64,000 nt of DNA from Eubacteriaceae bacterium (GTDB lineage Bacteria; Bacillota; Clostridia; Lachnospirales; Lachnospiraceae). A program made the position numbers and the translations under genes. How positions within the stretch are numbered: position 1 is the first letter of the stretch; every line of letters begins with the position of its first letter. This document shows positions 33,589 through 55,172 of this stretch, one piece after another. The stretch is from contig CAJTFB010000012.1 of assembly GCA_910575665.1 (NCBI GenBank), positions 1 to 64,000 of the forward strand, in the 5' to 3' direction. The notes beneath the pieces are model-generated. The model saw nothing but the letters and a program-made list of their open reading frames with translations, was not told the DNA's origin and did no database searches.

Positions 33589-34536
33589 ATGAAGGTATTA
33601 AAAAGTTATGAATGTATGAATGCCTGTATCCTGAATCATATGAACTGTGCAGGCATAAAGATAAACGGAAGCGACATCTTTTTTTCGGGTGGAGGATATC
33701 CTGTCAGTTATAAAAAGGGAAGTTTGACCCGTATTGTTTCAGATGGTTATGAAGCAAATTTTCGTTTTTTAGACCAATATGGTATTGATTACAAGTTTGG
33801 GAGGGTATCACCGGAAAAAAATTCTCTCCTTTCGTTTCTTGAAAATTCTGATGCCATTACGATAAGGATGGTTTCTGATTTTTTGACGTATGATCCGGTA
33901 TTTTCCCAGACAAGCGGCGCTTCCCATTTTATCAACATATTGAAATATGACAGTGATAAAATGAGATTTTATATTGCAGATGGAGATGTTCCCTCAGCAG
34001 AAACAGGAACTTATCTCGGGTGGCTAGAAGAGAGTGATGTCTTGAAGGGATGGGAGATAAAGTGTGGTGAAATTTTTGCTCTAAAACTGTCAGAAGGACT
34101 GGATCGGGAAAGGTTTTGTCGGCGCGTCCGAGAAGAGGCGAATTCTCAGGTAAAGCGGTCAATCAAATGTTATTTAGATGGTACAGATCATTTCTGGCTA
34201 AGCCGCTCAACTGGCGAGAAAGCGATTTCCTGCATGGTGAAAGAAATGGGAAGATATGTAGAAAAAAGAGACTTTAGAGATATAACAATAGATGCCAATT
34301 TTCGTCTGAGGGTAGATGGATATATGGGGGCGAAAAAATTTTTATTAGAGAAGCTTTGGGAACAGGGAAAAACTAAGTTGGCAGAAGAATATAAAGCTCT
34401 CATCGATCGATGGTCAAAATGGTGCATGTTGCTGTTGAAAAGTGGACTAGTAGCAACGACAGAGAATTTTTCCGTTGTAAAACAAAGAATGGAGGAACTG
34501 GTTCAACAGGAGCATGAAATATTGGAGAAATATTAA
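33589..34536 (+). CDS. BtrH-like acyltransferase (papain-like fold), copy 1
   Basis: A 315-residue cytosolic protein that resembles BtrH, which moves an acyl group from carrier protein BtrI to an aminoglycoside amine in butirosin synthesis. Visible candidate triad: Cys13 (NACILNHMNC), His114 (GASHFINILKYD) and Asp132 or Asp134 (FYIADGD), in the order of the BtrH_N family, with FFSGGG between. The C-terminal ~130 residues are helical, DUF4872-like. Weak AGGA ribosome site. First gene of a unit with decarboxylase, ATP-grasp and carrier protein, the same set as btrH-K-J-I. Acceptor unknown. Confidence 0.72.
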   Translation: MKVLKSYECMNACILNHMNCAGIKINGSDIFFSGGGYPVSYKKGSLTRIVSDGYEANFRFLDQYGIDYKFGRVSPEKNSLLSFLENSDAITIRMVSDFLTYDPVFSQTSGASHFINILKYDSDKMRFYIADGDVPSAETGTYLGWLEESDVLKGWEIKCGEIFALKLSEGLDRERFCRRVREEANSQVKRSIKCYLDGTDHFWLSRSTGEKAISCMVKEMGRYVEKRDFRDITIDANFRLRVDGYMGAKKFLLEKLWEQGKTKLAEEYKALIDRWSKWCMLLLKSGLVATTENFSVVKQRMEELVQQEHEILEKY

Positions 34537-34548
34537 CAGGAGATAGAC

Positions 34549-35745
34549 ATGACAGAAGATATTCAAAAGAAAGCCATTCAGAAATATGGTTCCCCATTGT
34601 ATCTTTATGATATGGATCAATTCAGGCTCAATATAGACAAACTTAGAGAGCATCTGTTTCCTGAAAGTGGATTGTTTTTTTCAATGAAGGCCAATCCATT
34701 ATCTGCATTTTCCAGCATAGCCTGTGAGAGAAGCTGTGGCGTAGAAATAGCATCTGGAGGGGAGCTGGAGCAGGCACTAGATAGTGGTGCTGCTCCTGGA
34801 AATATCGTGTTTACCGGACCAGGGAAAACAGAAAGTGAGTTACTGCAGGCCATCGATGCACAAATTTATATGATTCATGCAGAGTCTCTCCGGGAGATAC
34901 GAATCATCAATCAGTTAGCGGAGAGGAAGAACTGTAGTGTGCCCATTGCACTTCGTATTAATCCAAATGGAATAAAGTCATCGGGGAAGATACAGATGAG
35001 TGGAACTGCTTCGCAGTTTGGAATCGAAGAGACGGAAATTGATGACAGTTTGTTTGAAGAAATAAATTCCTTGAAAAATGTTAATTTAACTGGTGTACAT
35101 ATTTATATGGGAACATCTATATTAAATGCTGAGGAGATATGTCGGAATACGGAGTATTCAATTCAGCTGGGAATAGAACTTTCTGGAAAATATGCTTTCA
35201 AATTAAGATATCTAAACGTAGGCGGGGGATTTGGCATTCCTTATTTTCCAGGAGAAAAGGCATTAGATTTGACAGCGATGAGTAGCGGAATGGCGATATT
35301 AAAAGAAAAATACCAGAAATCGTTACGGGAAACAAAATTGTTTTTTGAGAGTGGGCGTTTTCTTTTGGCAGAATGTGGATTGTTTATGGTCTGTGTGTTA
35401 TATCGAAAAGAATCTCGTGGAAATACTTATCTGGTTTGTGATGGCGGTGCGAATTTCCATGCTGCCTCTGCCTTTTTAGGAAGGTTCGTCCGGGGAAATT
35501 TCCCTATGTATGTATTAGGCAAAGAGGGAGCGGAAAAAGAGTTTTATGTGACGGGACCCTCTTGTACGCCAACGGATCTGTTGGGTCAGAAGGTCATGCT
35601 TCCATCGGACACAGATGAGGGGGATATCATTGTGATAGAAAAGTCTGGGGCATACGGACTTACCTACAGTCCTTATGGTTTTCTGAGCCACAAACTGCCA
35701 TTGGAGATTGGCTACGAAAAAGAAAATGGGTTCCAGATATTATAA
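34549..35745 (+). CDS. BtrK-like fold-III PLP decarboxylase
   Basis: A 398-residue enzyme of the diaminopimelate/ornithine decarboxylase fold. PLP lysine Lys47 lies in FFSMKANP; the phosphate loop is LNVGGGFGIPYF (222-233); ESGRF (267-271), CDGGANFH and the active-site GPSCTPTD (Cys339) are present. In butirosin, BtrK decarboxylates glutamyl carrier protein to GABA carrier protein. Lies 12 bases after the BtrH-like gene and 30 before an ATP-grasp ligase, so a carrier-bound substrate is likely. A free amino acid substrate (LysA-type) is the alternative, but no lysine genes are near. Confidence 0.82.
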   Translation: MTEDIQKKAIQKYGSPLYLYDMDQFRLNIDKLREHLFPESGLFFSMKANPLSAFSSIACERSCGVEIASGGELEQALDSGAAPGNIVFTGPGKTESELLQAIDAQIYMIHAESLREIRIINQLAERKNCSVPIALRINPNGIKSSGKIQMSGTASQFGIEETEIDDSLFEEINSLKNVNLTGVHIYMGTSILNAEEICRNTEYSIQLGIELSGKYAFKLRYLNVGGGFGIPYFPGEKALDLTAMSSGMAILKEKYQKSLRETKLFFESGRFLLAECGLFMVCVLYRKESRGNTYLVCDGGANFHAASAFLGRFVRGNFPMYVLGKEGAEKEFYVTGPSCTPTDLLGQKVMLPSDTDEGDIIVIEKSGAYGLTYSPYGFLSHKLPLEIGYEKENGFQIL

Positions 35746-35775
35746 ATATTCGGTGAGGCTAAAGAAGAGGTAATA

Positions 35776-37041
35776 ATGAATTTTTGCTGGCTGTTTAATA
35801 TTGGAATAGAAGATAACTGGTCTGTAGACCGATTTAAGATGAAAGATCTGGAAGAGGATTGTATTGTACAGCATATGGAAGAAATTATGCTGTTAATGGC
35901 AGATAAAGATGATACTCTGCTCTTGCGCAGGAAACCAAATGACACGTTTTTATGCCAAATGAGGTCCTATGGATTTGAAGTACCCCAAATAATTTATCCA
36001 GAGAAAGAAGATACAACAAAAACAATTACCCAGCTTGTTCTTGAAGATAAAAGGATTCTTCAGGAATTAAAAGAGTTGTCTCGTAAAAAGGATACACATC
36101 TTCTTCCCTATGGTGTTACCGAAGATGAGGAAATACTGGCTAAGGAATGTGGTATGAGGTTGATTGGACCGAGTTCGACGGTATCACGCGTTTCCAATAG
36201 CAAATTATATGCAAAAGAACTTATAAAAAGACTCCATCTGTCATCGCCGGATGGAAAAGTATGTGAGAATTTTGACCAGATTCGGGAAGAGTGGGAACGT
36301 TTAAGGAAGCAGTTTCGCCGTATCGTTATGAAAAGACCATATGGGGCATCCGGAAGAGGATTATATCTGGTGGAGAATTTTGAGAAGCTGCAAAGAGTGC
36401 TGTATATATTGAAGCGTTCTGGCGGTGAAAATGAAAAATGTATTGTAGAGGGCTGGTATGAGGATAAAAAGGATTTAAACACTCAGATGTTTATATGCGA
36501 TGATGGTAATATTAAAATACTCTCAGTAAAGGAACAAATCCTGGAGGGTACTGTATACAAAGGTTCAATTTTTCCAGTTGAATTGTCAGTTGATATAAAG
36601 AGTAAATACTTAACTGCTTTAGAAAAGGCGGGGAGCGAGTTGTACAAGGATGGCATAAGAGGAATTGTCGGCATTGATTCTATCGTGACGGAACAAGAAA
36701 TTTTTCCGATCATAGAGATCAACGTGAGATTTACGCTTTCTACTTATCTGTCTATGTTACCATTGCGATTTCCAGATAGATATTTTTGCTCCATGTATTA
36801 CAGGATTTTTTTGTCGGAGAAATGGAATTACACTGAAATAACAAAAAAACTAGTTCGAGCCGGGCTGGCGTTTGATACGAAAACTAGGGAAGGAATATTT
36901 TGTTATAACCATGCCTGTGTACACCAGGATATTTTAGGTAAAGCTGGACGCTTATTTGTCATAATGATTGCAAAGCAAAGGACAGATTTACAAAAACTGC
37001 GTTTTAAATTGGAACAGTTATTGGAGGAGGCAAAATATTGA
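35776..37041 (+). CDS. BtrJ-like ATP-grasp ligase
   Basis: A 421-residue protein with a pre-ATP-grasp N-terminus and an ATP-grasp fold: RIVMKRPYGASGRGLYLVEN (ATP loop, about 178-197), CIVEGWYEDKKDLNTQMFIC and the metal-binding EINVRFTLSTYLSML. The arrangement matches BtrJ, which uses ATP to attach glutamate to the carrier protein phosphopantetheine. The next gene is a carrier protein that starts one base after its stop. The amino acid loaded cannot be read from sequence. Confidence 0.78.
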   Translation: MNFCWLFNIGIEDNWSVDRFKMKDLEEDCIVQHMEEIMLLMADKDDTLLLRRKPNDTFLCQMRSYGFEVPQIIYPEKEDTTKTITQLVLEDKRILQELKELSRKKDTHLLPYGVTEDEEILAKECGMRLIGPSSTVSRVSNSKLYAKELIKRLHLSSPDGKVCENFDQIREEWERLRKQFRRIVMKRPYGASGRGLYLVENFEKLQRVLYILKRSGGENEKCIVEGWYEDKKDLNTQMFICDDGNIKILSVKEQILEGTVYKGSIFPVELSVDIKSKYLTALEKAGSELYKDGIRGIVGIDSIVTEQEIFPIIEINVRFTLSTYLSMLPLRFPDRYFCSMYYRIFLSEKWNYTEITKKLVRAGLAFDTKTREGIFCYNHACVHQDILGKAGRLFVIMIAKQRTDLQKLRFKLEQLLEEAKY

Positions 37042-37042
37042 T

Positions 37043-37291
37043 ATGGAGCTGGAAAAAACGATACGGAACAAGCTGGCAGAAGTGTTAAGGACCGAGAATC
37101 CAGAGGAGATATCTTTAGAAAAGGATTTGAAAGAGTATGGAATGGATTCGTTAAATGCCATCGAACTGGTTGTTGCATTAGAAATGGAATTTGGGATTGA
37201 ATTCGCTGAAGATGACTTACTGGTAGATAATCTCTGTACCGTGCAGAAATTAATACTTGTGGTGAGGAAATATCAAGGGCTTAGGAGGTGA
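37043..37291 (+). CDS. Acyl carrier protein 1 (BtrI-like)
   Basis: An 82-residue carrier protein with the phosphopantetheine serine Ser36 in KEYGMDSLNAIELVVAL and the acidic helices of a type II ACP. GGAGG stands upstream inside the end of the ATP-grasp gene and the two are separated by one base. It probably carries the aminoacyl group made by the ligase and decarboxylase. It is not the fatty-acid ACP, as no fab genes are near. AcpS-type activation would come from elsewhere. Confidence 0.88.
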   Translation: MELEKTIRNKLAEVLRTENPEEISLEKDLKEYGMDSLNAIELVVALEMEFGIEFAEDDLLVDNLCTVQKLILVVRKYQGLRR

Positions 37292-37364
37292 GATTATGAA
37301 TAAATGAAATATTATAAAGAAATAGGTTGATCATTTAAGGTGAAGGAAAGGAGAACAAAAGACA

Positions 37365-37895
37365 ATGGATAAAATTATAAAAAACAAGTGTGTAGTATTA
37401 ATACTAATTCTAGCATTCTTTTTTTATAATGTATGTGATGTTAAAGCTGCTCAAAAAAAGAAAGAGATTCAACATACTTTTAGAATGAAAGAAATAGCGA
37501 ATTTTGGGGCATCATTATATGTGGTAGTTGATGTTTTTTCGACAGCGACAGAAAAATATACATACACAACTAAAAATGTAAAGTACAATAGGAGAAGTGT
37601 ATATGCTTATTTCAAGGAGATAACATCGCAAACTTATTACCAGTGTGGGGTTTCACCGATACGTCATTATAATAGTTCAGGTTCAGAAATTAAAAATTTT
37701 AGCTGGAAAAATGACGATGGGCTTTTTCCAGGTGGAACGGTTTTTAATTACGCTAAATATAATGATACAGAAGTAACTTATACTCGTTCAAATAGAAATA
37801 AGGCTCAGTGGACAGTTGCTGTATCTGCCCCAGACACTCAACAAAAACTTGCAGTAAAAACGGGAACTATCAGTCTGTATTTTTCATCCAAGTAA
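37365..37895 (+). CDS. Exported hypothetical protein
   Basis: A 176-residue protein with a signal peptide (CVVLILILAFFFYNVCDVKA, cleavage near Ala-Ala29) and a beta-rich, Tyr/Thr/Asn-rich mature part (about 145 residues) without known motifs. GAAAGGAGAACAAAAG is upstream. AT-rich compared with the enzyme genes. It sits between carrier protein 1 and a SurA-like protein, both in the same direction. No function assigned. Confidence 0.7.
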   Translation: MDKIIKNKCVVLILILAFFFYNVCDVKAAQKKKEIQHTFRMKEIANFGASLYVVVDVFSTATEKYTYTTKNVKYNRRSVYAYFKEITSQTYYQCGVSPIRHYNSSGSEIKNFSWKNDDGLFPGGTVFNYAKYNDTEVTYTRSNRNKAQWTVAVSAPDTQQKLAVKTGTISLYFSSK

Positions 37896-37909
37896 AGGAG
37901 GACAAAGAA

Positions 37910-38572
37910 ATGAAAAAAATATTAAAAAGGAAAAAGACATTAATCACATTGGGGACATGTATTGCTATTTTAGGCTTAACTTTCGGAACCGTAAGCATTG
38001 CTCAAAATTATTATAAGAGCTCTGGTTCTAGTGAAAAGGAAAAGGCAGTATATCAAATGGCTGAAAAAGAAAAAGAGAGATTAAAGGATAGAGGAACTTA
38101 TAACCCCAAAGGTCATATTAAAAAGGAAGATCTTGCTGAAAAAGCTGAAAATGTTGCAGATGTGTTTGATATGAGCGTCAGTGAAGCAGAAAAACGGATT
38201 ACGAAAAATTCGATTGAGAAAAAAGCCTTATATCTGGCAGCTGAAGAGGCGGGGTTTACCGTTGATGAACAGGAAGTAACAGAAGCAATTGATAAAATAA
38301 GGGCCACTTTTGTATCGGATCCAGAAGGTAAGAAAGAGCTTGAGGCTGAGATCGCCGGTATGGGAATGGATGAAGAGGAGTATTGGAATTTTGTACGTCC
38401 ACAATACAAGTCAAATATGATAGTCAACAAGTATTTGAATAAAATGTATGAAGAGAAATGTAAAGAAGAAAAAATAGATTTATATTCTGAAGAATATATG
38501 GAAAAGCGCAAAGAGTGGCGGGATTCCATCGCACAGGAGGCAATTAAAAAATATAATGTTAAGGTAGAATAA
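37910..38572 (+). CDS. Membrane-anchored SurA/PrsA-N-like protein
   Basis: A 220-residue protein with an N-terminal anchor or signal (TLITLGTCIAILGLTFGTVS) and a helical domain resembling the SurA N-terminal chaperone fold (IEKKALYLAAEEAGFTVDEQ, EVTEAIDKIRATF, MIVNKYLNKMYEE). There is no proline-isomerase domain. AAAGGAGGACAAAG lies before the ATG at 37910. It may help fold or deliver exported partners encoded beside it. Confidence 0.72.
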   Translation: MKKILKRKKTLITLGTCIAILGLTFGTVSIAQNYYKSSGSSEKEKAVYQMAEKEKERLKDRGTYNPKGHIKKEDLAEKAENVADVFDMSVSEAEKRITKNSIEKKALYLAAEEAGFTVDEQEVTEAIDKIRATFVSDPEGKKELEAEIAGMGMDEEEYWNFVRPQYKSNMIVNKYLNKMYEEKCKEEKIDLYSEEYMEKRKEWRDSIAQEAIKKYNVKVE

Positions 38573-38596
38573 ACATTATAATGAAGTTAGTACTTT

Positions 38597-38637
38597 TTGG
38601 TCAAATTGTTGTTTTAATAATGTGACAATTTGACCAA
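38597..38637. promoter_or_regulatory. 13-bp inverted repeat inside the biosynthetic unit
   Basis: TTTGGTCAAATTG pairs with CAATTTGACCAAA across a ~15-base loop, between the SurA-like gene and the lipoprotein gene. No long T-tract follows, so operator or weak terminator are both possible. Confidence 0.5.
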
Positions 38638-38678
38638 ATGTACATTTGTATCAATAGTTATTTAGTGAGGGAATACAG

Positions 38679-39452
38679 ATGAAAAAACGATATTTAGTAT
38701 TGATGGTTAGCATTTTAGTTTTACTATTTGGCTGTGGAGGAAGAAATCATTTAACTGAGACAAAAAACACGTATCCGCCAGAAAAAACGGACATAGCAAA
38801 AGAAATATATTGGGAAAAAAAAGAAGATCTGGGATTTCAGAAAACCAGTACTGTTCATTTGGAGTCTAACAAAGATAATTCAGGGTTGAAGATTGTAATA
38901 GACGGATACCCTGTCAGTCTGGAAAACGAAAAAGAGCTTACATATCAGAATTTTGACTTTACTAAAATGATAAAAAAGGATTTTGATGAAGATGGAATTA
39001 TGGAAATCGTTATATTATTTTATGGGAGGACCTTTGAGAATTTCAGAGTAATAAAATATGATGGGAAAACATGGGGAATGGTAAATATGGGCCAGGTAGA
39101 AGATACGTGGTCAAATTTTGTAGAGGTGAAGGCGCTGAAAAATAGTTCCGTGAAGATTGAGGTTAAAAAAACAGGGTATAAAACTACAGTAAAGCTTCCA
39201 AACAATAAATATCTTAAAAGAGAAGGGGAGAAAGCAATTTCGGGTACAGGTTATCATTTCTTTGAATTGCAGGATAATGATATCATCGTGGTTAATCAAT
39301 TATATCTGAATAATGTGGGGGATGCCTTTGGACAGGTCAGGCAAAAGATTCATCTCGATGAAAAAGGAACAGAGCTGATACTGGGAGAGACCAGTTATAT
39401 GTCCCAAAAAGATGCCAAAGGGAGAAAGTATGAGATGTATGAAGATTCGTAA
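38679..39452 (+). CDS. Putative lipoprotein with EF-hand-like repeat
   Basis: A 257-residue protein with a lipoprotein signal ending in LLFGCGG (Cys19). The mature part is beta-rich and includes KDFDEDGIMEIVI, an FG-GAP/calcium-loop-like segment. No family recognised. Its gene is preceded by a 106-base gap with AAATTGTTGTTT/TGTGACAATTTGACC-type near-repeats (TTTGGTCAAATTG and CAATTTGACCAAA form a perfect 13-bp inverted repeat around 38597-38637), so a terminator or regulator site separates it from the gene upstream. Confidence 0.7.
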   Translation: MKKRYLVLMVSILVLLFGCGGRNHLTETKNTYPPEKTDIAKEIYWEKKEDLGFQKTSTVHLESNKDNSGLKIVIDGYPVSLENEKELTYQNFDFTKMIKKDFDEDGIMEIVILFYGRTFENFRVIKYDGKTWGMVNMGQVEDTWSNFVEVKALKNSSVKIEVKKTGYKTTVKLPNNKYLKREGEKAISGTGYHFFELQDNDIIVVNQLYLNNVGDAFGQVRQKIHLDEKGTELILGETSYMSQKDAKGRKYEMYEDS

Positions 39453-39464
39453 GGAGGAAATAAA

Positions 39465-39710
39465 ATGCAGACGATACGCAGACAGATTATCGATATCATA
39501 GAAAAATATGCTGGTAAGGAAGTTGTAACGGACGGAGATATCAGCCTGATTGATGATTTGGAGTTTGATTCCCTTCAGCTTGTGGGAGTATTGACAGAAA
39601 TAGAGGAAAAGTTTCATATTTCTTTTGAACAGGGGGAAAAACTATTGGATATGGTGGACAGTCTGGATAAAATAACAGAGTATGTGGAGGAATTCAATGA
39701 AATATCGTAA
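39465..39710 (+). CDS. Acyl carrier protein 2
   Basis: An 81-residue carrier protein with the phosphopantetheine serine Ser36 in DDLEFDSLQLVGVLTEIEEK, more like D-alanyl or NRPS-type carriers than the first ACP. AAGGAGG precedes the ATG. It lies 12 bases before an adenylate-forming enzyme, its likely loading partner. Two carrier proteins in one unit suggest two building blocks. Confidence 0.85.
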   Translation: MQTIRRQIIDIIEKYAGKEVVTDGDISLIDDLEFDSLQLVGVLTEIEEKFHISFEQGEKLLDMVDSLDKITEYVEEFNEIS

Positions 39711-39722
39711 GGGAATTATGAG

Positions 39723-41177
39723 ATGAAGACGAGAGAGCCTGACTTATGGAATTTTAAAAAGTACGCAGACCTGCCAGCGGTTCTGACGGAGGACGGGAAA
39801 GAATACCGCTATTCGGAAATCGACCTGCTTAGGCAGGAACTTGCCAGCCGCATTCGGCCGCATACCCTTGTGCTGCTGCTGGCAGATAATGATATAGGAA
39901 GTCTGATGGGGTATGTGACCTGTCTCACACATGGCAGTGTGCCGATTTTGTTTCAGCAGGAGAGAGATAATACAGGTTTTATCTATATGGCAGAACATTA
40001 CGCTCCTGATTATGTGTGGCTGTCAGAAATACAATATAGCAGATTGAGACAAGGATTAGATTTTGGATATGAAAGCTGTTTTTATTTCCTGGGGTACATA
40101 TTATTGCAAAAGAAGGAAGTAAGTATGATCAAACTCTATCCAGACCTGGCGTTATTGCTGCCGACATCGGGCTCTACCGGCAGTCCAAAACTGGTACGTA
40201 TAAGCGCTGAAAATATAGCGGCTAATACGAGATCCATCTGTGAATATCTGGATCTGACAGAAGCAGACAGGGCAGTTATGTCTCTGCCTATGAGCTATAC
40301 CTATGGGCTTTCTGTCATAAACACTCATCTGTTCGTGGGAGGAAGTATCCTTCTGACAAAGGCAAAGGTAATACAGAGACGTTTCTGGGAGATGGTAAAC
40401 AAATACCATGTTACATTTTTTGCAGGCGTACCCTATACCTTTGAGTGCATGAAGAAAATACAGGCAGATAGGCTGGAATTAAAGGATCTGCGTATATTGA
40501 CCCAGGCAGGAGGCAGGCTGTCAGAAGAGCAGCAGCGGTATTGGGGTAAGTATGCAGAGAAGAAGGGAAAGGAATTTTATGTAATGTATGGGCAGACAGA
40601 GGCAACGGCGAGAATCAGTTATCTGCCGCCCGAGGACTGCCTGAGAAAGATTGGGAGCGTGGGAATACCTGTTCCAGGCAGCTGTATCCAGATAGAAGAT
40701 GAAGGACATCATAACGTTTCCGTACCAAAACAAGAGGGAGAGGTCGTCTGCGTGGGAAAGCAGGTGAGCCTGGGTTATGCAGAAAGTATAGAGGATTTAT
40801 CTCGGCCGGATCAAAATAAGGGAGTACTCTATACCGGGGATTTAGGTTATTTAGACGAAGAGGGGTATCTCTATATCACGGGAAGGAAAAACAGGTTTGC
40901 CAAGATTTATGGAAAGCGCATCGACCTAAATGTTTTGGAGCAGCTGGCTAAAGAATATTTTGGTGGAGAGACAGCAGCATTGGCGGATGATAAAAAAATC
41001 TATTTCTATACCGATGCGGATGTAACTGAGGATGAGCTTGCGAAAATACGAAATCACCTGCCGTTTGGCGTGGATGTTTTTGAAATCCGGGACATGGAAA
41101 CAGTGCCAAGGAAAAGTTCAGGCAAGATCGATTACAGAGGTGAAGAGTTATGCTTACAGAGAGACAGAGAAAAATAA
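39723..41177 (+). CDS. AMP-binding adenylation enzyme (acyl-ACP ligase-like)
   Basis: A 484-residue ANL-family enzyme: P-loop LLPTSGSTGSPKLVRIS (about 146-162), SLPMSYTYGLSV, YGQTEATARIS, YTGDLGYLDEEGYLYITGR and a C-terminal PRKSSGKIDYRG with the adenylation lysine. The N-terminal 140 residues are shorter than in typical acyl-CoA synthetases. It probably activates a carboxylic acid and loads carrier protein 2 next door. Its last 28 bases overlap the next gene, a PaaK-like enzyme, so they are co-translated. Confidence 0.88.
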   Translation: MKTREPDLWNFKKYADLPAVLTEDGKEYRYSEIDLLRQELASRIRPHTLVLLLADNDIGSLMGYVTCLTHGSVPILFQQERDNTGFIYMAEHYAPDYVWLSEIQYSRLRQGLDFGYESCFYFLGYILLQKKEVSMIKLYPDLALLLPTSGSTGSPKLVRISAENIAANTRSICEYLDLTEADRAVMSLPMSYTYGLSVINTHLFVGGSILLTKAKVIQRRFWEMVNKYHVTFFAGVPYTFECMKKIQADRLELKDLRILTQAGGRLSEEQQRYWGKYAEKKGKEFYVMYGQTEATARISYLPPEDCLRKIGSVGIPVPGSCIQIEDEGHHNVSVPKQEGEVVCVGKQVSLGYAESIEDLSRPDQNKGVLYTGDLGYLDEEGYLYITGRKNRFAKIYGKRIDLNVLEQLAKEYFGGETAALADDKKIYFYTDADVTEDELAKIRNHLPFGVDVFEIRDMETVPRKSSGKIDYRGEELCLQRDREK

Positions 41178-42418
41178 TACGGCATGCCTATGAGACGGTG
41201 CCTTTCTATATGAATATTAGCAGGGAAAAGGGAATTGACTGTGAGAAGTGTGAAGATCTTGCGGACATTCCTATCGTCAGTAAGGAAGATCTTGTTCTGC
41301 GGAATGATGCTTTTATTTCAGCAGGATATATGGCGGAATATCTACAGGGGAAGCTGGTACAGACCCATACGTCCGGTTCGACGGGGAAATGCGCCAATAT
41401 TTTTTGGAATCTGAAGGAATGCAGGCGTTCTCTTCTGCCGTTGTGGATAAAGAGAAAAAGATATTATGACATTAATCCACATGACAGGTATTGCTATTTT
41501 TACACGGGGAGAAGAGTTGGAGAGACTGATATAGAGATAGAGGAAGGGGGATTTGCCCTCGGTTTTTGTAAATGTAATCTGACGGATGAAAAACTAGTAC
41601 ATATCTGGGAGAAGATGAGAGAGTTTGGACCGGTGTGGATGAACCTGCAGCCCAGTATGGCAATATTATTGTGCCGGGTCATAGAAAAAAACGGGTTGGA
41701 TCCGATACCTACTCTGCGATACTTAGAAACAACCGGTGAGATGTTATTTCCACACATGCGAAAATACATACAGGAAAAAATGGATGTAGTGATTGCAGAT
41801 CAGTATGGCTGCAATGAATTAAATTCTCTTGCCTTTGAATGTCCGAAAGGGCATCTGCATTGTATGGAGGAAAATGCAGTAATTGAAATTCTTGACGAAC
41901 AGGGTGATCCACTGCCGGATGGGGAGGAAGGAGAGATCGTTGTCACCTCTCTGAGTAATTTTGCTATGCCGCTTATCCGTTATAAGATTGGTGACCGGGG
42001 ATGCTTTTTGAAGGAAACCTGTTCCTGTGATGATCCTGGGAAAGTACTGAAACTGACAACCGGGAGAAGTAATGACTGGGTTGTGGACAGGGAGGGTAAT
42101 CTGTTAAATGCCTATATATTTGTGAGATGTGTTGAAAATATTAACAGGATATACGAACATGCAATTCTGCAGTTTCAGGTAATTCAGCATGCGGTGGATA
42201 AGTTTACAATAAAGCTTGTAATCGATGAGGAATGTGAACCGGATGAAATATGCCGATACTTTATGGAAAACCTATGGCAGGGCACCCTTTTGGGAGCCGA
42301 TTTCCGCATACAGATTTATCCGGAGTTGATTCCAGAGGATAGAAGCGGGAAGTTGAAATGGTTTGTCAGTGAGATAGAGGATAATGTACAAGGGAGAGGA
42401 ATGGGGGATAATGTTTGA
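41150..42418 (+). CDS. PaaK-like adenylate-forming enzyme
   Basis: A 422-residue protein of the phenylacetate-CoA ligase (PaaK/CapK) group: VPFYMNISREKGID, TSGSTGKCANIFWN, DQYGCNELNSLAFECPKGHL, EIVVTSLSNFAMPLIRYKIG and GRSNDWV. It differs from the preceding AMP-binding enzyme in subfamily, so the unit activates two acids or has a split activation/transfer step. CapK-like members join acyl groups to amines in some pathways. ATG lies inside the previous gene with GAGG upstream. Confidence 0.85.
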   Translation: MLTERQRKIIRHAYETVPFYMNISREKGIDCEKCEDLADIPIVSKEDLVLRNDAFISAGYMAEYLQGKLVQTHTSGSTGKCANIFWNLKECRRSLLPLWIKRKRYYDINPHDRYCYFYTGRRVGETDIEIEEGGFALGFCKCNLTDEKLVHIWEKMREFGPVWMNLQPSMAILLCRVIEKNGLDPIPTLRYLETTGEMLFPHMRKYIQEKMDVVIADQYGCNELNSLAFECPKGHLHCMEENAVIEILDEQGDPLPDGEEGEIVVTSLSNFAMPLIRYKIGDRGCFLKETCSCDDPGKVLKLTTGRSNDWVVDREGNLLNAYIFVRCVENINRIYEHAILQFQVIQHAVDKFTIKLVIDEECEPDEICRYFMENLWQGTLLGADFRIQIYPELIPEDRSGKLKWFVSEIEDNVQGRGMGDNV

Positions 42419-42490
42419 GAATATAGCTGTTGGTATGTGAAATGGAAAGAGAAGCATACAGCGTTAAAATGACCTAAATGGAGATATGTT

Positions 42491-43465
42491 ATGGATAAAT
42501 ACATAAAAAGAGAGATTAAACCGTTTAATGAATTTTGGATTAACTGTGAATCAACAATGCTTCATTCCCTGTTGATTACACTTGATGAGAAATACCGTGT
42601 CATGGCATATACGAATAATTATGTATATGAGGTTCTACATTTTCCGACACCCAGCCGTAAGTGGATCAATGAGGTAAGAGTAAAACCTGAAATAATGGAC
42701 ATTTTTCATGTGGTTCTGAAAAATAGACGTGAAGTGCGGTGGAATGATTATGATAAGGCCGTCTGTGAGATAAAGGATTTCCTGAGGCAAGGGAAAATCG
42801 TTATGGCTGGCGTGGATTTGTTTTATTGGATACCGATGAATATGTGTTACCACAAGCACCATGCAGATCATTATGCCATAATTAATGGTTTTGATGAAGA
42901 CAAGGATATTTTCTTTGTTATGGATACGGATAATGTCAAATACCAGGAATTTGAAATGCCAGTAGAAAATGTGATGGAGGCCATTGCGCATTGTGATTTG
43001 CATTATGACGCACTTGTATATGATCTATGCACAAAAGAGGAAATCGAGCCTTACATGTTTGATAAAAAGGAATTGATCTGGCGGGCAAAAAGAATTTATA
43101 AGAGCCTTCGGCCGTTATCCAGGAAATACTTCTGGCTGATGGAGGAGGATGATTATAGAAAAGGATTTTACAGGGATATGTGTGTCATGTACATATTGCA
43201 GATAAATTGCCGGATGAAGGCAAACCGGCTGCTAATTGAATATCTTATAGAAAAGGAGATGATAGTGGAATTGGCTCCGCTGCAGGAGGATTGTCACCGG
43301 ATAGAAAGGAGGTGGACCGCTATAAAAAATAAGGTGTCAAAGGCTTATTTTGCAGAGAGCAGTGTGACAGAGATGGTGAACCTTGGTGAACAGATGATGA
43401 CGCAGTTTGAAGAAGAACGAAAGATGTGGAAGGCGTTTGTGAAGTTGTATGATAAACGCCGTTGA
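42491..43465 (+). CDS. BtrH-like acyltransferase, copy 2
   Basis: A 324-residue cytosolic protein of the same general type as the first gene of the unit but strongly diverged. Candidate triad: Cys19 (WINCESTMLHSLL), His127 (HADHYAIINGFDEDKD) and Asp145 (FFVMDTDN). The C-terminal half is helical and charged. GGAGATATGTT precedes the ATG. A second transferase suits a pathway that joins two carrier-bound groups or modifies two positions. The family match is by motif order only. Confidence 0.65.
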   Translation: MDKYIKREIKPFNEFWINCESTMLHSLLITLDEKYRVMAYTNNYVYEVLHFPTPSRKWINEVRVKPEIMDIFHVVLKNRREVRWNDYDKAVCEIKDFLRQGKIVMAGVDLFYWIPMNMCYHKHHADHYAIINGFDEDKDIFFVMDTDNVKYQEFEMPVENVMEAIAHCDLHYDALVYDLCTKEEIEPYMFDKKELIWRAKRIYKSLRPLSRKYFWLMEEDDYRKGFYRDMCVMYILQINCRMKANRLLIEYLIEKEMIVELAPLQEDCHRIERRWTAIKNKVSKAYFAESSVTEMVNLGEQMMTQFEEERKMWKAFVKLYDKRR

Positions 43466-43539: not shown

Positions 43540-44172
43540 ATGAAAAAACAAACAAGAATCATTATTTGCATCTTACTGGCTTTCATAGTATTGGGCGGTA
43601 TAGGGATCTGGGTCTTTGTTTCTGGTAACCCGGCAGACGAAACATATTCTGCATCCTGGGAAGAGAATGGGAATAAAGTTTACTTTAATGAGCCGGATCA
43701 TGATGCCGTAGCGGCGGCTAAGTTAGCGCTTCCAGATGGGGAAAAGAAAGAGCTAACACTAGAAGAAGTCAATCAGTATTATGGACGTGACATGTCAGAA
43801 TGTTATATACCTGAAAATCTGGTGAAAAACAATTTAAAAGAAAAATTTGATTTTTACTACGATGGGGATAAAGTAACAAGTGACCGAGCCGTACTGTGGT
43901 ACAGTATAGAGGGGGGGACTGGTCCTGACTATCCATACATGGAGATCGAATTCCAGAAGGGAAAGATACCGTTGTCGGATATGATATATGCTGACAACGA
44001 TATAAAAGAATCTATCATCAACGAAAAAAAGGTAACGTTTACAGCAGAGTTCCCAGAAGGAAGTACAAATTATACAGCAGAGTTCCTAAACAACGAGATT
44101 GGGTACAGGGTACAAGGTATTTCAATTTCTCAGGAAGAGTTTATGAAAGTGATTTATTCCCTGCTTGATTGA
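43540..44172 (+). CDS. Membrane-anchored hypothetical protein
   Basis: A 210-residue protein with one N-terminal membrane helix (IIICILLAFIVLGGIGIWVF) and an extracytoplasmic domain of about 180 residues; the end (YRVQGISISQEEFMKVIYSL) resembles DUF4367-type domains. Its own ribosome site is poor. A strong AAAGGAGG instead serves a 7-codon frame (43509-43532, MSNIYFS) that stops 7 bases before this ATG, suggesting coupling or a damaged earlier start. Last gene of the unit before repeat copy 2. Confidence 0.7.
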   Translation: MKKQTRIIICILLAFIVLGGIGIWVFVSGNPADETYSASWEENGNKVYFNEPDHDAVAAAKLALPDGEKKELTLEEVNQYYGRDMSECYIPENLVKNNLKEKFDFYYDGDKVTSDRAVLWYSIEGGTGPDYPYMEIEFQKGKIPLSDMIYADNDIKESIINEKKVTFTAEFPEGSTNYTAEFLNNEIGYRVQGISISQEEFMKVIYSLLD

Positions 44173-44330: not shown

Positions 44331-44384
44331 GTATATTAACAAATAATGAAAAACAAGTTACTATTTAAAATTTGGAGGTACAAA

Positions 44385-46436
44385 ATGAGAAAGGTAAAAA
44401 AGAAAACAAATTATTTAGACAAATATAGGAAAATCATTTCATTTTTCTTAATAACATTACTGCTTTTCGGTTGTATTACGAAGTTAGAACTGAAATATGT
44501 AGAAGCAAAGGAATTAACAGTTTATGAAAATAATTCGAATAATGTTTTTAGTTCCACTAAAGACAATAGTGATGTTGAGCTTTCATATCATATTAACAGC
44601 AGTTGGGGTGAACATTATAATGTGGATGTTACACTTACAAATATTACAGACGAAAAAATAGATGATTGGGAAATAAAGCTACCTGCTAATTTTTTTATAG
44701 AAAATATTTGGAATGCGAGAGTAATGTCTAGTGAAAAAAATAGTTATACAATTCATAATGCGGATTGGAATCAAGATATCCCGGTTGAAGGAAAAGTTTC
44801 TTTTGGAATGACAATAAAATCTGATAAAAAGCCGGATTTTCCGAAGTATTGTAGCACAACTAGAATGTGTCTGGGGGTGATGACAGAGTATAAAGTTGAA
44901 TATATGGAATATAGTTCATGGGATAATCATATTAATGGTAAGATTACCATAACCAATTGTGGAAATAACAGAATTGAAGACTGGAAACTTATGCTAGAAA
45001 CCAATTTCAATATAGAAAGTATTTGGAATGCGACTATTCTTACACAGGAAGAGGAAGAAAGTGTATACTATTATGATATTGACAATGTAGTGAATAATCA
45101 GAATATAGAACCACAACAGAGTATTGAATTTGGTTTTATCGCTACATGTGATGAGAAACCAAAAATTATTAACTCTGATTTGTTTGAAATGAAAGAATTT
45201 ACTGATGAAATCAGGGAATCTTGTATGGATATAGATTTAGATGATGTCAAAGATTATGAGAATGATGAATGTATTTTTGACGCAGATTACTTTGAAACGC
45301 CCCAGGAGTATGAAGATTATATTAATGGATTAATTGGGAACAAGAAAAAAATATCAAGGCAGAGAACAATAAAGGATAATTTATATAGGACCTTAACGGA
45401 TCCTATTTCTGGAATGCTTATTAAGTCATTTGATTTTTCACCTTCTGAAAAAGCAATACAAAATTATATGCCTTTAGCTAATGGAATTTATACGTTGCAG
45501 CATAGGTCAAATGATAAAGAATCGAAAAAGTATAATGACGCATTATTAATGTCAGGAAGTTTAAATGATAATAAGTATTATAATTTTTCTGAAAAAACAA
45601 ACTTAGTGGGATTCGCCCATGGTCAGACATTTGAACAATTTTGTTGTAATGGAGTAGGATACTATCTTCTGGCTGGATATGCTAAAAATGGTTTTGCTCG
45701 AAATTTAGTGATTATGAAAGAAAAAAAGTTTGAAGAAATTTCTCATAAGCAGACATATGATTTTGAAGAGTGGAATAAGAAAAAGAGGTCATTTTTACGA
45801 CTTACAGGCTTAGAGTGTGCAAATAAAAAGGGCAAAAAAAGTGGATCAGGCGAGATACATCGAGTAGATGCTGCGCTTACTGCGGATGGGAAAACCATGG
45901 TTATCTGGAAAAAACTCACGAAACCCTCTGTAGTAGAGATTAGTTTATATGATATGGATAAAATACAAAAGAAAATTTTAAAAAGTAAGTTTGAAAAGGC
46001 ACTGTCCTTTAGTAATAAATCTACTAGATGGGAATTAAAAAAGGCATGTATTGGCTCTTTTTATGAAAAATATAAAGTTGGTGATGATACTTCAAAACAT
46101 ATTTTACAAGCAAATGACTCATTTCAATCCATTGACATAGAAAATGCAGGTAAAGATGCTTGGAAAATATTAATTACCAGTGGAAATCAAAAAGTTAAAA
46201 AGCCAGTATCAATAACTCGAATCGATTTTAAGAAAGACGGTACAAAAAAATGTTACAGGGAATATATTTCATTTCCGGGAATTGAAGAAAATGAATTCGA
46301 TTTTGAGCTTGAAGGCGGACATATAGTTGGAGACAATTTAGATTTTGTGGTGAAAATGGCTAAAAAGGCGGGGAATGGAAAAGAGCAGTATATAGCAACC
46401 ATTCCTTTAAAAGATATTAAAACACCATTAAAATAA
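44385..46436 (+). CDS. Lipoprotein with two CBM2-like domains and helveticin-J-like C-terminus
   Basis: A 683-residue exported protein. The N-terminal hydrophobic segment ends in LLLFGC, a possible lipobox. Two CBM2-like beta domains follow (about 50-160 and 165-275), each with a W-x-NVDVTLTN or W-x-NGKITITN strand, a DW strand, IWNA and a later FG pattern. The C-terminal ~340 residues resemble helveticin J-like bacteriolysins (RVDAALTADGKTMVIWKKL, EISLYDMDKIQKKIL). GGAGG stands before ATG 44385. First gene of the second Spo0A-box unit. The helveticin assignment is from pattern only. Confidence 0.65.
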   Translation: MRKVKKKTNYLDKYRKIISFFLITLLLFGCITKLELKYVEAKELTVYENNSNNVFSSTKDNSDVELSYHINSSWGEHYNVDVTLTNITDEKIDDWEIKLPANFFIENIWNARVMSSEKNSYTIHNADWNQDIPVEGKVSFGMTIKSDKKPDFPKYCSTTRMCLGVMTEYKVEYMEYSSWDNHINGKITITNCGNNRIEDWKLMLETNFNIESIWNATILTQEEEESVYYYDIDNVVNNQNIEPQQSIEFGFIATCDEKPKIINSDLFEMKEFTDEIRESCMDIDLDDVKDYENDECIFDADYFETPQEYEDYINGLIGNKKKISRQRTIKDNLYRTLTDPISGMLIKSFDFSPSEKAIQNYMPLANGIYTLQHRSNDKESKKYNDALLMSGSLNDNKYYNFSEKTNLVGFAHGQTFEQFCCNGVGYYLLAGYAKNGFARNLVIMKEKKFEEISHKQTYDFEEWNKKKRSFLRLTGLECANKKGKKSGSGEIHRVDAALTADGKTMVIWKKLTKPSVVEISLYDMDKIQKKILKSKFEKALSFSNKSTRWELKKACIGSFYEKYKVGDDTSKHILQANDSFQSIDIENAGKDAWKILITSGNQKVKKPVSITRIDFKKDGTKKCYREYISFPGIEENEFDFELEGGHIVGDNLDFVVKMAKKAGNGKEQYIATIPLKDIKTPLK

Positions 46437-46453
46437 CTAAATTTGGAGGCGGC

Positions 46454-47620
46454 ATGAGAAAATTGATTCATTTAATTTTTGCTATTTGCATTTGTATATG
46501 CTTAATAAATACTATGGAGCAATCATTGAATGCCAAAGAACGTATTCAATACAGCTTGTCTGGGAAGGGTGTTATTACGTTCTCTGGCAAAGGACCACTT
46601 ACTTATTTTGACCATCGTTCTCTGGCATGGGAAGAAAAGGAAAAGATTAAGAAAATTGTTATTGGTGAGGGAATAACAGAATTAGAAGAACAGGCGCTGG
46701 CTGGTTTTTCCAATGCAGAAGGTATTGTGTTTCCAGATTCATTGACAAAAATAGGAACAGAATGCTTTAGTAATTGCTATTTACTAAAAGAAATTACATT
46801 TGGAAAAAATATCAGAGAAATTGGAGAAAGTGCATTTTCTGGATGTGTTGCGTTGAAACGTCTGACGATACCAGATACAGTAACTAAAATAGGCGGGTAT
46901 GCATTTTATAATTGTAAAAGGTTAAAGGAATTGATCTTACCAGCTTCTTTGAAATCATGGAAAAAAAGTGCCGTTAAGCAGTGCCCGCAGCTAAAAAGGA
47001 TTGTAAATCGTTCAAAGATTTCCTGTGGGATTAATACATATAAAGGGTTACGGATTTGGCGGGTAAGCGGCAGGAAAATAGGCGTATTACCAAAAGGAAA
47101 AACGGCATTGGCCAAAGGGAAGATGATCCCCATTACTTATAAACTAAAAGGTGGGAAGAGAAACGGAATACTGCCAGGTGCTTATGAGTATGGAACCCGT
47201 TTAAAAATACCTTTGAATGTGACGAAAAAGGGATATACAGCTGTTGCATGGTACTGTCAGGGAACGGACAGCAATTCAGATATGACATTTTATGTTGGAC
47301 CCGAAGCGAAAAAAGTGATTCTTACGCCCTTCTGGTATAAATACAAAATTGAAAACAAAGAGAATGGTTCTGTTCATGCGATTATTGATATAGAAGATAA
47401 AGATTGGGCATATGACAGATATGAAATAAGATATTCTGAGTATGCTAATATGAAAAATTCAACAATTACAACGTTATCTCTGAATAAGGGAAATGTCTCA
47501 AAGAAGATTACTGGTTTGAAAAAAGGTAAAACTTACTATTTTCAGTTTCGGGCATATGTAGATGCCGAATCCGGTGCAGGATGCTGGGTCGGAAAACGGA
47601 AGGTCAAAATAGTAAGGTAA
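46454..47620 (+). CDS. BspA-type leucine-rich repeat surface protein
   Basis: A 388-residue exported protein: signal peptide (LIFAICICICLINTM), about four LRR_5 repeats (residues 60-190; FPDSLTKIGTECFSNCYLLK, IPDTVTKIGGYAFYNCKRLK), then a beta region and an Fn3-like C-terminus (GLKKGKTYYFQFRAYV). No sortase signal or membrane anchor. GGAGGCGGC lies before the ATG. It resembles the C-terminal layout of the next gene, so the two are paralogues. Confidence 0.85.
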   Translation: MRKLIHLIFAICICICLINTMEQSLNAKERIQYSLSGKGVITFSGKGPLTYFDHRSLAWEEKEKIKKIVIGEGITELEEQALAGFSNAEGIVFPDSLTKIGTECFSNCYLLKEITFGKNIREIGESAFSGCVALKRLTIPDTVTKIGGYAFYNCKRLKELILPASLKSWKKSAVKQCPQLKRIVNRSKISCGINTYKGLRIWRVSGRKIGVLPKGKTALAKGKMIPITYKLKGGKRNGILPGAYEYGTRLKIPLNVTKKGYTAVAWYCQGTDSNSDMTFYVGPEAKKVILTPFWYKYKIENKENGSVHAIIDIEDKDWAYDRYEIRYSEYANMKNSTITTLSLNKGNVSKKITGLKKGKTYYFQFRAYVDAESGAGCWVGKRKVKIVR

Positions 47621-47646
47621 AAGGAGGTGTAAAAAGGAGATATTTC

Positions 47647-49515
47647 ATGAAAAAAATATTAATTGTTTTAGTCCTTTTTTGTTGGGTTTCCTTATGGGAC
47701 TGCCATCCCATTTATGCAGAGGAAACCATAAAAGGCAACTGTGGAGAATCGGTTTTCTGGGAATATAGTAATGGACTGTTAAGGATTTATGGAAATGGTG
47801 AAATGAAAACAAATCCGTGGATGAATTATAAAGACTGCAGAGAAAATTTGCGCAAAGTAATCATTGATGAGGGTGTTACGACTGTTTGTGAAAAAGCTTT
47901 TAATACTACAGAAGGCGATTCTTTGGAATACGACTATATGGCAGAGGGAGTTTTCCTGCCAGATACATTAGAACGTATTGGGGAGATGGCTTTTGCATTT
48001 TTAGGGGGATTGAAGGAGATTGATATTCCAGCTGGTGTAAAGAGCATTGGTGAAGGAGCGTTTGCGAGTTCTTCTAACCTGCAGACCGTTACTTTCTCAA
48101 GGGGATGTAAATTGGAAAAAGTAGAGGCTTATACTTTTAGTGGTTGTAGTGGTCTGGAGAATATTGTGCTGACAGAAGGTATTTCATATATTGGAGACGG
48201 TGCCTTCACAGAATGCAGATCCCTGAAGAAAATTAATCTTCCGGACAGTGTGAGTAAAATAGGTAAGCGGCTTTTTTATGAATGCTATCTGTTAGAAAGG
48301 ATTAAAATCCCAGATGGAATTACATCAATTCCCACTGGAATGTTTATTAAATGTTATCATTTGACGAAGGTTGAGATGTCAAATAATATTAAAAAAATTG
48401 GTTCTTATGCATTTTCATTTTGTTCTAGTTTAGAAAAGGTCAATATCCCATCAGAGTTAGGGGAGGTAGGAAAACAGGCATTTATCTATTGCGCGGCTTT
48501 AGAGGAACTGAATCTTCCAGATACATTAACCAGGATTGGTGAGGATGCTTTTGAGGGGTGCTGTGGATTGAAGAGGATTCGATTTCCTCAAAAATTGAAA
48601 GAAATCCCGCCCAAAATGCTCTATGACTGCACTGGATTAAAAAAAATCAACATTCCGGCTACGGTAACAAAGATTGGGAAAAACGCATTTGGAGGATGTG
48701 CCAGTTTAAGAAGATTAGTGATTCCTCCCAATGTTAAAAAAATTGATCCGTGTCATCAAGATTGTCCTGGGTTAAAGGAAATTCTTAATAAATCCAAGGT
48801 AACATATTCATTGTCGGCGAGTGAACTTGTAATGAATTGGTACCAGGGGAAGAAAAGGGTTACGGAAGTAAAGCCAGGAAAGGCAGTTGTTTCTAAAGGA
48901 AAACGTTTTCAAATTACATATGATTCTGGATTGCTGAAAAAATACAAGATCGATGCAAATGGAAAACTTCCGACGTCTTATGTGTATGGGAAAGAGCCTA
49001 AAATGCCACAGAAGGTAAAGGCGGCTGATTCCAACATACTTTTTATGGGATGGCGCTATCGGGTAAATAGTAAGAAATATAAGTCTGGTCCGACCCGCAC
49101 ATGGTATAATGCCAGAGTAACACAGTTTAGTAAAGGATTAAAGGGTGATGTGAAAGTATTTCCAATGGTAGACAAGGTTATGGTAAGAAAGAACAGCACA
49201 AAAAAGGTTGTTATGGTTTCCAAAGTGCTGTTAAAGGACTACTTAACCGCAGATAGTATTGATCTCGGATATATCAGCAAAGACCCTGGTCCAAGATATT
49301 TAATGTTTCAAGCAAGATATGCAGACAATAAGCACATGAAAAATGCGAAGTATTTACCTTTGCTTAGTCATGAATGGACAAGAAGATTTGCACTAAAAAA
49401 CTTAAAAAAAGGAAAGGTATATTACATTCAATATCGAAGTATTCCGTTTAGATATTTTGGAGTTCCGAGTGAGACCTGCTGGGGGCAGATGTTTAAAGTG
49501 AAAATAAAGGAATAG
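47647..49515 (+). CDS. BspA-type leucine-rich repeat surface protein, longer paralogue
   Basis: A 622-residue exported protein with signal peptide (ILIVLVLFCWVSLWDCHPIY, then AEE) and about eleven LRR_5 units (residues 60-380) of the form LP-[ST]-[LV]-T-x-IG-x-x-AF-x-x-C. The C-terminal ~240 residues match the preceding protein and end in an Fn3-like LKKGKVYYIQYRSI. BspA-like proteins bind host or matrix ligands. AAGGAGATATTTC precedes the ATG at 47647; the frame is open upstream into the previous gene. Confidence 0.85.
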   Translation: MKKILIVLVLFCWVSLWDCHPIYAEETIKGNCGESVFWEYSNGLLRIYGNGEMKTNPWMNYKDCRENLRKVIIDEGVTTVCEKAFNTTEGDSLEYDYMAEGVFLPDTLERIGEMAFAFLGGLKEIDIPAGVKSIGEGAFASSSNLQTVTFSRGCKLEKVEAYTFSGCSGLENIVLTEGISYIGDGAFTECRSLKKINLPDSVSKIGKRLFYECYLLERIKIPDGITSIPTGMFIKCYHLTKVEMSNNIKKIGSYAFSFCSSLEKVNIPSELGEVGKQAFIYCAALEELNLPDTLTRIGEDAFEGCCGLKRIRFPQKLKEIPPKMLYDCTGLKKINIPATVTKIGKNAFGGCASLRRLVIPPNVKKIDPCHQDCPGLKEILNKSKVTYSLSASELVMNWYQGKKRVTEVKPGKAVVSKGKRFQITYDSGLLKKYKIDANGKLPTSYVYGKEPKMPQKVKAADSNILFMGWRYRVNSKKYKSGPTRTWYNARVTQFSKGLKGDVKVFPMVDKVMVRKNSTKKVVMVSKVLLKDYLTADSIDLGYISKDPGPRYLMFQARYADNKHMKNAKYLPLLSHEWTRRFALKNLKKGKVYYIQYRSIPFRYFGVPSETCWGQMFKVKIKE

Positions 49516-54167: not shown

Positions 54168-54224
54168 AATTCATTTCCTTTCTAAATATATTATGGATGA
54201 TAACTTCTGTTTTACCTCCACTCC

Positions 54225-55028: not shown

Positions 55029-55128
55029 GGGATCACTCCTGATAGAGTGTTTAAAAACAATATATGTCAGTTGTTTTTTGGGTGTGAAAATCTTGACATA
55101 AACATGAAAAACATATATACTTATTTTA

Positions 55129-55167
55129 TGTGAGACGATGGCGGTGTGCGCCGTCAGGTTACTCACA
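55129..55167. other. Hairpin between spoVFA and ffs
   Basis: TGTGAG (55129-55134) pairs with CTCACA (55162-55167), with GACGAUGGCG-like inner pairing to CGCCGTC. It is followed at once by the dispersed hairpin repeat. Role unknown. Confidence 0.4.
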
Positions 55168-55172
55168 TTTCT

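Follow-up and report, generated by a model that had tools for sequence, protein, structure and literature searches.

The stretch of DNA analysed here, referred to as the window, comprises the first 64,000 nucleotides of contig CAJTFB010000012.1, from the draft genome (4.19 Mb in 163 contigs) of a Lachnospiraceae member deposited as Eubacteriaceae bacterium. Downstream of rplL, the window carries eleven co-directional genes on the plus strand (33589-43465), which encode, in order, a BtrH-type protein (BtrH1), a pyridoxal phosphate (PLP) decarboxylase, an ATP-grasp ligase, an acyl carrier protein (ACP1), an exported protein of 176 amino acids, a SurA_N-like protein, a lipoprotein, a second carrier (ACP2), an AMP-binding enzyme, a PaaK-like enzyme and a second BtrH-type protein (BtrH2). 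Open reading frame (ORF), Pfam and NCBIfam data agree on this layout and bear out the gene set, order and strand proposed in a first-pass annotation, which had also counted four exported or accessory proteins between the two carriers, where three were found. The biosynthetic genes form two modules: module 1, with a BtrH-like protein, the decarboxylase, the ligase and ACP1, and module 2, with ACP2, the two adenylate-forming enzymes and BtrH2. At the level of sequence, the enzyme families, their catalytic residues, this two-module make-up and the kinship of module 1 with butirosin-type genes are established (Table 1).

Table 1. Genes of the unit and one adjoining gene (positions in the window)
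Feature	Position	Strand	Basis
BtrH1, BtrH_N-type (papain-like) acyltransferase, C9-H113-D131	33589..34536	+	Pfam BtrH_N 23.5 bits (cut-off 29.7); alignment
BtrK-like PLP decarboxylase, K47, H184, ESGR, GPSCTP	34549..35745	+	Best PDB match BtrK 2J66/7RU7; tree, motifs
BtrJ-like ATP-grasp ligase (PreAtp-grasp, ATP-grasp_3, PGM1_C)	35776..37041	+	Pfam; tree 93/91
ACP1, BtrI-type carrier, GMDSL	37043..37291	+	PP-binding 54.9 bits; BtrI-type ACP group 93/90
Exported 176-aa protein, signal peptide by eye	37365..37895	+	No Pfam family over cut-off
Anchored SurA_N-like protein	37910..38572	+	Pfam SurA_N_3 23.6 bits, below cut-off 27.2
257-aa lipoprotein, LFGC lipobox by eye	38679..39452	+	Sequence; no Pfam family
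ACP2, EFDSL, of the kind seen beside PaaK-like genes	39465..39710	+	PP-binding 25.9 bits; groups with L094 ACP 87/86
AMP-binding enzyme, TSGSTG, YGQTE, TGD, SGK	39723..41177	+	Pfam AMP-binding 139.8 bits
PaaK-like adenylate-forming enzyme, TSGSTG, YGCNE, SGK	41150..42418	+	Pfam, NCBIfam; genus-wide family
BtrH2, second BtrH_N-type acyltransferase, C19-H127-D145	42491..43465	+	Pfam 31.5 bits, over cut-off 29.7; alignment
Anchored 210-aa protein, possibly associated	43540..44172	+	No Pfam family; homolog beside G017 and G034 copies (tblastn)

The first four genes are, judged by sequence and not by activity, a butirosin-type BtrH/K/J/I set, which upholds the match that the first-pass annotation had proposed. 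This assignment rests on a solved-structure match, on trees, on active-site residues and on an independent locus in genome G219, where a decarboxylase and a carrier share one frame. Among solved structures, the decarboxylase scores 286 bits against BtrK (aligned over residues 11-393) and 149 bits against the best diaminopimelate decarboxylase (2P3E), so that free diaminopimelate decarboxylation, named in the first-pass annotation as an outcome that would undo its reading, was rejected. Diaminopimelate decarboxylases carry EPGR and CES motifs; the ESGR and CTP motifs of the window enzyme match those of the enzyme from genome G855, and ESGR occurs in all seven decarboxylase rows of the window set, G219, G855, G942 and G862, with ELGR in the remaining six. 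Membership in the exosortase A-associated families TIGR03098/TIGR03099 was also rejected (154 bits against a cut-off of 592.35, and 346.7 against 478.45). In midpoint-rooted trees, the ligase groups with those of G855, G942, G862 and G219 (support 93/91, with one long, suspect branch elsewhere in the tree), and ACP1 groups with the carriers of the same four genomes (93/90, the alignment being short and 8 of its 15 inner forks unresolved). The ligase found two weak matches among solved structures (28.4 and 27.6 bits).

The comparators come largely from a search with BtrK of 245 genomes from the family of G491, which gave 37 matches at 1e-70, the best being that of G855, 63% identical to the PDB BtrK; neighbourhoods were taken from four of these 37 genomes (G855, G942, G862 and G491). 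The G855 locus (L098) holds GGACT, BtrH_N (35.3 bits), ACP, ATP-grasp, decarboxylase, luciferase-like oxygenase and dehydroquinate-synthase-like genes, and by this content it is a butirosin-type cluster; its ligase is 28% identical to the window ligase over 328 amino acids (140 bits). In G219, the neighbours of the fused decarboxylase and carrier are a ligase with 35% identity and two proteins that match BtrH at Cys, His and Asp in the alignment. A ligase, ACP, decarboxylase and BtrH_N gene (49.8 bits) are found in G942, and G862 has a ligase, ACP and BtrH_N gene (36.4 bits) with the decarboxylase some 6.5 kb further. ABC-transporter-like genes were seen by eye in these stretches, together with a gene resembling those of non-ribosomal peptide synthetases (NRPS) at the G942 edge, and no deoxystreptamine gene was seen by eye among them, where not every ORF was scanned. 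These loci indicate that module-1-like sets recur outside butirosin. Among plasmids, the ligase matched three records; in the single match that covers 80% or more of its length, from Streptomyces decoyicus, the gene adjoins a type III PLP enzyme and an ACP. The decarboxylase matched 79 records at 1e-40, two of which were opened besides that of S. decoyicus. Similar clusters also occur at L055 and L054 (genomes G183 and G219), with an ATP-grasp gene, possibly a BtrH-like neighbour and, by eye, radical S-adenosylmethionine (SAM), oxidoreductase and ABC-2-type transporter genes.

Regarding the two BtrH-like transferases proposed at first, BtrH2 passes the Pfam cut-off and BtrH1 falls below it, with Cys-His-Asp kept; these three are the sole invariant residues in an alignment of ten BtrH-type proteins and are present in both. 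No match to BtrH2 was found in plasmids. In the related loci, a group of 500-aa proteins (A11) has doubtful BtrH kinship (91% over 56 columns, Cys not conserved), a second group (A14) makes a better case (97%), and no BtrH kinship is claimed for the 276- and 320-aa proteins at L094 and similar loci (profile A13, 36% probability). A second BtrH-bearing cluster of the window's own genome (L041, contig C51, 1-11163) has two BtrH_N matches; AMP-binding enzymes, a short-chain dehydrogenase/reductase and a pair of ABC transporters were recognised there by eye or BLAST, and two serine-recombinase-like genes are found further on.

Module 2, in turn, belongs by its sequence relationships to a genus-wide family of its own, with links to exported proteins and CcpM-type loci, a connection that the first-pass annotation had overlooked. 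A PaaK-like profile (1e-40) finds 28 places in 13 of 61 genomes, the window's own included; all 13 are among the 37 genomes of the genus, with none among the 24 others, and 2 of 196 genomes in the order matched. The neighbourhoods of all 28 genes were read (29 rows, as one gene is in two pieces), with neighbour families defined by BLAST links and Pfam or NCBIfam scans of some members. The 28 loci are not independent, since some are mutually orthologous (L096/L135 and L097/L133). A same-strand ACP lies within 3.5 kb of 21 of them, as detected by a profile built partly from the same loci; as for the other seven, four are within 350 nt of a contig end, two have a gene of the TIGR04069-like group (in L138, 23.5 bits against a cut-off of 70) and one has neither. 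Within 6 kb, subtilase-family genes accompany 15 of the 28, AMP-binding genes 10, BtrH-like proteins with the Cys 8, proteins of doubtful BtrH kinship (family F3) 10, CcpM-type radical SAM genes 3 (L134, L138 and L139), and a decarboxylase plus ligase also 3 (the window, G017 and G036). In the window's own genome, Pfam places an ACP at most 3.5 kb away from 4 of the 6 PaaK-like genes (the ACP profile raises this to 5), where 3% would be expected at random (about 1.4e-5, from a binomial that ignores clustering; the 19 background ACPs exclude the one beside the PaaK-like gene at C3:86064).

The three CcpM-type loci are subtilase-family loci with a PaaK-like enzyme. In L138, the radical SAM protein scores 486 bits (cut-off 500) and a TIGR04066-type protein 286.8 (cut-off 200), the respective figures for L134 being 457.8 and 90.4; L139 has both types of protein, and L134 adds to these a 455-aa BtrH-like protein, an ACP and an enzyme of the AMP-binding family. 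Contig C24 of the window's genome (L095) shows an array in which subtilase genes, exported proteins of leucine-rich-repeat (LRR) type and PaaK-like enzymes recur, along with one ACP and one 498-aa BtrH-like protein. A special linkage with LRR proteins was considered and rejected, as the genome has 54 LRR matches.

Orthologous units were found in four genomes: two complete (the window and G036) and two with gene loss or breaks (G017 and G034). Ligase orthologs mark the same four among 61 relatives, those of G017, G036 and G034 being 92%, 64% and 62% identical; 38 further genomes give background ATP-grasp matches, of 1.4e-6 or weaker. The named records with a ligase relative are metagenome-assembled genomes (MAGs), which carry the labels uncultured Roseburia sp., Lachnoclostridium sp. 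UBA3262 and uncultured Lachnospiraceae bacterium. At wider range, matches were found for the ligase in 5 of 392 genomes of the order (over 1e-12), for BtrH2 in 2 of 392 (over 1e-6) and for the decarboxylase in 4 of 398 genomes of the phylum (over 1e-85). The G036 set has another gene order, a different lipoprotein and a LytTR/GHKL pair upstream. The G017 copy shows a deletion in BtrH1, a split BtrH2 and no 176-aa gene, and in that of G034 the frames of BtrH1 and the decarboxylase are interrupted, with no match to the AMP-binding, PaaK-like, BtrH2, SurA-like and 176-aa genes in the stretch searched; MAG assembly errors could contribute to these breaks. Among the 61 genomes, the 176-aa protein is present in the window's own and G036, and the SurA_N-like protein in four at 1e-10; a stand-alone relative of the latter, 36% identical, lies in genome G023 (L101, 8422-9081), with no BtrH cluster seen around it in that stretch. 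Ratios of nonsynonymous to synonymous substitution (dN/dS) against G017, the nearest relative, are 0.05-0.25 for the unit genes (rplA 0.017); against G036 they do not exceed 0.27, with high synonymous rates that are infinite for four genes. The low values against G017, together with the whole or partial units in three other genomes, place the unit far beyond chance. The conserved co-occurrence on which the first-pass annotation made its reading depend stands in part: the unit is limited to four genomes, in two of which genes are broken or lost, although module-1-like sets exist in more distant members of the Bacillota and module 2 is widespread within the genus.

The spacing of the genes is compatible with a single transcription unit, without proving it. 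Intergenic gaps run from -28 to 30 nt with three exceptions (73 nt between ACP1 and the exported protein, 106 nt between the SurA-like protein and the lipoprotein, and 72 nt between the PaaK-like enzyme and BtrH2), a further 74 nt lie 3′ of BtrH2, and the start of ACP1 was set at 37043 in place of the 36968 of the ORF list. Terminator-like sites numbered 7 in a pattern scan, against an expectation of 5.6, and promoter-like sites 43, against 32.4. The catalytic motifs of the unit enzymes are intact. Module 1 has a G+C content of 39.1%, the exported part 33.8% and module 2 42.2%, differences that would fit a composite origin, again without proof.

By analogy with butirosin, the reading that we hold to be reasonably probable is that of a composite amide-assembly pathway, in which glutamate would be held on ACP1, decarboxylated there, and joined by a BtrH enzyme to an acid prepared on ACP2. 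BtrK decarboxylates glutamyl-BtrI to give gamma-aminobutyryl-BtrI, as stated in PMC7857480. In the window, the ATP-grasp ligase would attach an activated amino acid to holo-ACP1, most likely L-glutamate through its gamma-carboxyl, after which the BtrK-like enzyme would strip the alpha-carboxyl to leave a gamma-aminobutyryl thioester. The two adenylate-forming enzymes may supply one or two activated carboxylic acids, of which ACP2 would receive at least one. The BtrH enzymes would accept acyl groups from the carriers on their own cysteine and hand them over to amines, one placing the acyl group of ACP2 on the free amine carried by ACP1 and the other releasing the chain onto a final amine acceptor. 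Carrier loading, decarboxylation on the carrier and acyl transfer are inferred from the butirosin case, whereas glutamate as the substrate, the identity of the acids, the order of joining and the acceptor are guesses. The product is probably an amide, and the unit is best regarded as a lead to a new product and not as a proven pathway.

Several observations weigh against this reading. In butirosin biosynthesis, BtrJ loads glutamate through its gamma-carboxyl and then adds a second, protecting gamma-glutamyl group that is removed by BtrG; no GGACT (BtrG) family was found by Pfam among the 11 unit products, the rest of the genome not having been searched, and no transporter family was found among them either. 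The window ligase departs in domain content from the butirosin-type ligase of L098, in which PreAtp-grasp stays under its cut-off at 14.2 bits and PGM1_C is not matched. The ligase and ACP1 forks both fall below the 95 mark, and the fork of the decarboxylase with the BtrK rows is weak (57/83, midpoint-rooted tree). The ten BtrH-type proteins are mostly 14-20% identical, which makes their alignment uncertain outside the motifs, and the two BtrH-like proteins of G219 have no Pfam match at E 0.05. Finally, in Rahnella and Streptomyces sp. CA-256286 a related decarboxylase occurs with an AMP-binding enzyme and an ACP, and no annotated ATP-grasp gene.

The strongest rival, which we nevertheless consider unlikely, is that the ACP/PaaK/BtrH set does not make a free small molecule but attaches acyl groups to an exported protein or peptide encoded with it, ahead of secretion. 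In its favour are the subtilase-family and CcpM-type genes near PaaK-like genes (15 and 3 of 28), the exported genes inside both the window unit and the complete G036 unit, and G017, where loss of the 176-aa gene goes with breaks in both BtrH genes. However, the 11 gene products include no radical SAM or subtilase, the exported genes stand at a different place in G036, and no ORF of 20-59 amino acids lies mainly in a gap inside the unit, three being found in the leader before BtrH1; nor is the LRR neighbourhood special, given 54 matches across the genome. A related proposal, to which we give still less credit, is that BtrH-like papain-fold enzymes are general stand-alone condensing enzymes of the ACP/PaaK-type loci of the genus, which would form a large family not described so far, acylating exported proteins or ribosomal peptides, and that the window unit would add a carrier-made gamma-aminobutyryl spacer.

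On the other hand, the decarboxylase might act on ACP2 loaded by the AMP-binding enzyme, with the ATP-grasp ligase adding a further amino acid later. The Rahnella and CA-256286 arrangement makes such a pairing conceivable, and the top NCBIfam matches of the decarboxylase and the AMP-binding enzyme, both below cut-off, are the exosortase-associated pair TIGR03099/TIGR03098. Nonetheless, the Rahnella and CA-256286 decarboxylases carry ELGR against the ESGR of the window enzyme, the gene order argues for ACP1, and the carrier joined to the G219 decarboxylase scores 112 against ACP1 and 60 against ACP2, so this order of events seems improbable. Least of all do we expect the product to be a signal of quorum or bacteriocin-like type, made under control of an Agr-type two-component system. 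In favour of it, a LytTR regulator and a GHKL kinase stand directly upstream of the G036 unit, and also near a PaaK-like gene in G025; these bear on regulation and not on chemistry, and the window unit, which has rplL upstream, showed no pair of this kind beside it.

Around the unit, an Rfam scan of 28000-50000 returned the ribosomal L10 leader alone (RF00557, 32177-32315, upstream of rplJ). Downstream, genes for exported proteins (CBM_2 and BspA-type LRR_5) occupy 44346-49515 and are common with G017 over the stretch fetched, and flavoprotein and DpaA_N-type genes, dipicolinate-synthase-like, adjoin each other on the minus strand at 53568-55178.

If the composite pathway is correct, a chemistry regarded as antibiotic tailoring would serve as a portable building-block arm in gut Lachnospiraceae, paired with a second carrier arm, and BtrH-type joining enzymes would stand in for NRPS condensation domains. 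The unit offers a testable set of eight proteins, as well as a pointer to the genus-wide PaaK-like/ACP loci near exported-protein and peptide-maturation genes. The first-pass annotation had called the unit undescribed, which holds, within the searches made, for the combination: no description of it was found in open-access papers, among the matches listed. It does not hold for the parts: four of the eight biosynthetic genes belong to types already described.

Among the closest known systems is butirosin biosynthesis in Bacillus circulans, where the hydroxyl group stems from a luciferase-like oxygenase and deoxystreptamine from a dehydroquinate-synthase-like enzyme. The window unit has homologs of all four genes btrH, btrI, btrJ and btrK, with a decarboxylase nearest BtrK, a ligase and ACP1 that group with the butirosin-type cluster, and the BtrH Cys-His-Asp kept. 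It differs in the Pfam domain make-up of its ligase and in having an extra carrier, an extra BtrH and a pair of adenylating enzymes. No 2-hydroxyl oxygenase or deoxystreptamine-pathway family was found among the 11 unit products (the rest of the genome was not searched), and the unit holds no dehydroquinate-synthase-like, luciferase-like oxygenase or aminoglycoside gene. The ATP-grasp/type III PLP/ACP loci of the S. decoyicus plasmid (NZ_CP108348) and G491 share the same ligase, decarboxylase and carrier trio, but have partners resembling ketoacyl synthase III (KAS III) and an ELGR-type decarboxylase; no BtrH was noted there, where not every ORF was scanned.

The idea of BtrH as a transacylase is not new here, as BtrH-family papain-fold proteins had been proposed to act with ACPs in predicted peptide-synthesis neighbourhoods other than butirosin (PMC2922099). 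Those neighbourhoods are built around aminoacyl-tRNA-synthetase-like or GNAT enzymes and a cupin, whereas the window unit has ATP-grasp, BtrK-like and PaaK-like enzymes. In Roseburia intestinalis L1-82, TIGR04068, TIGR04066 and TIGR04069 are found together with a subtilase and an ABC transporter, in the context of Cys-rich peptide maturation, according to PMC4573289. Distant relatives of the window's PaaK-like enzyme occur in loci of this CcpM/TIGR04066/TIGR04069 type (L134, L138 and L139), and no CcpM radical SAM, TIGR04066 or subtilase match was found among the unit products (Pfam for 11 of 11, NCBIfam for 10 of 11). Nor did Pfam detect a free-standing Condensation domain among the 11 products, a point that bears on the OaaA/OaaACP/OaaC fatty acid amide pathway of Coprococcus eutactus, another gut bacterium, which likewise combines an adenylating enzyme, a free ACP and amide formation. 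As described in PMC13142362, that pathway joins its substrates by an NRPS condensation domain, whereas the window unit would rely on BtrH enzymes and an ATP-grasp/decarboxylase arm.

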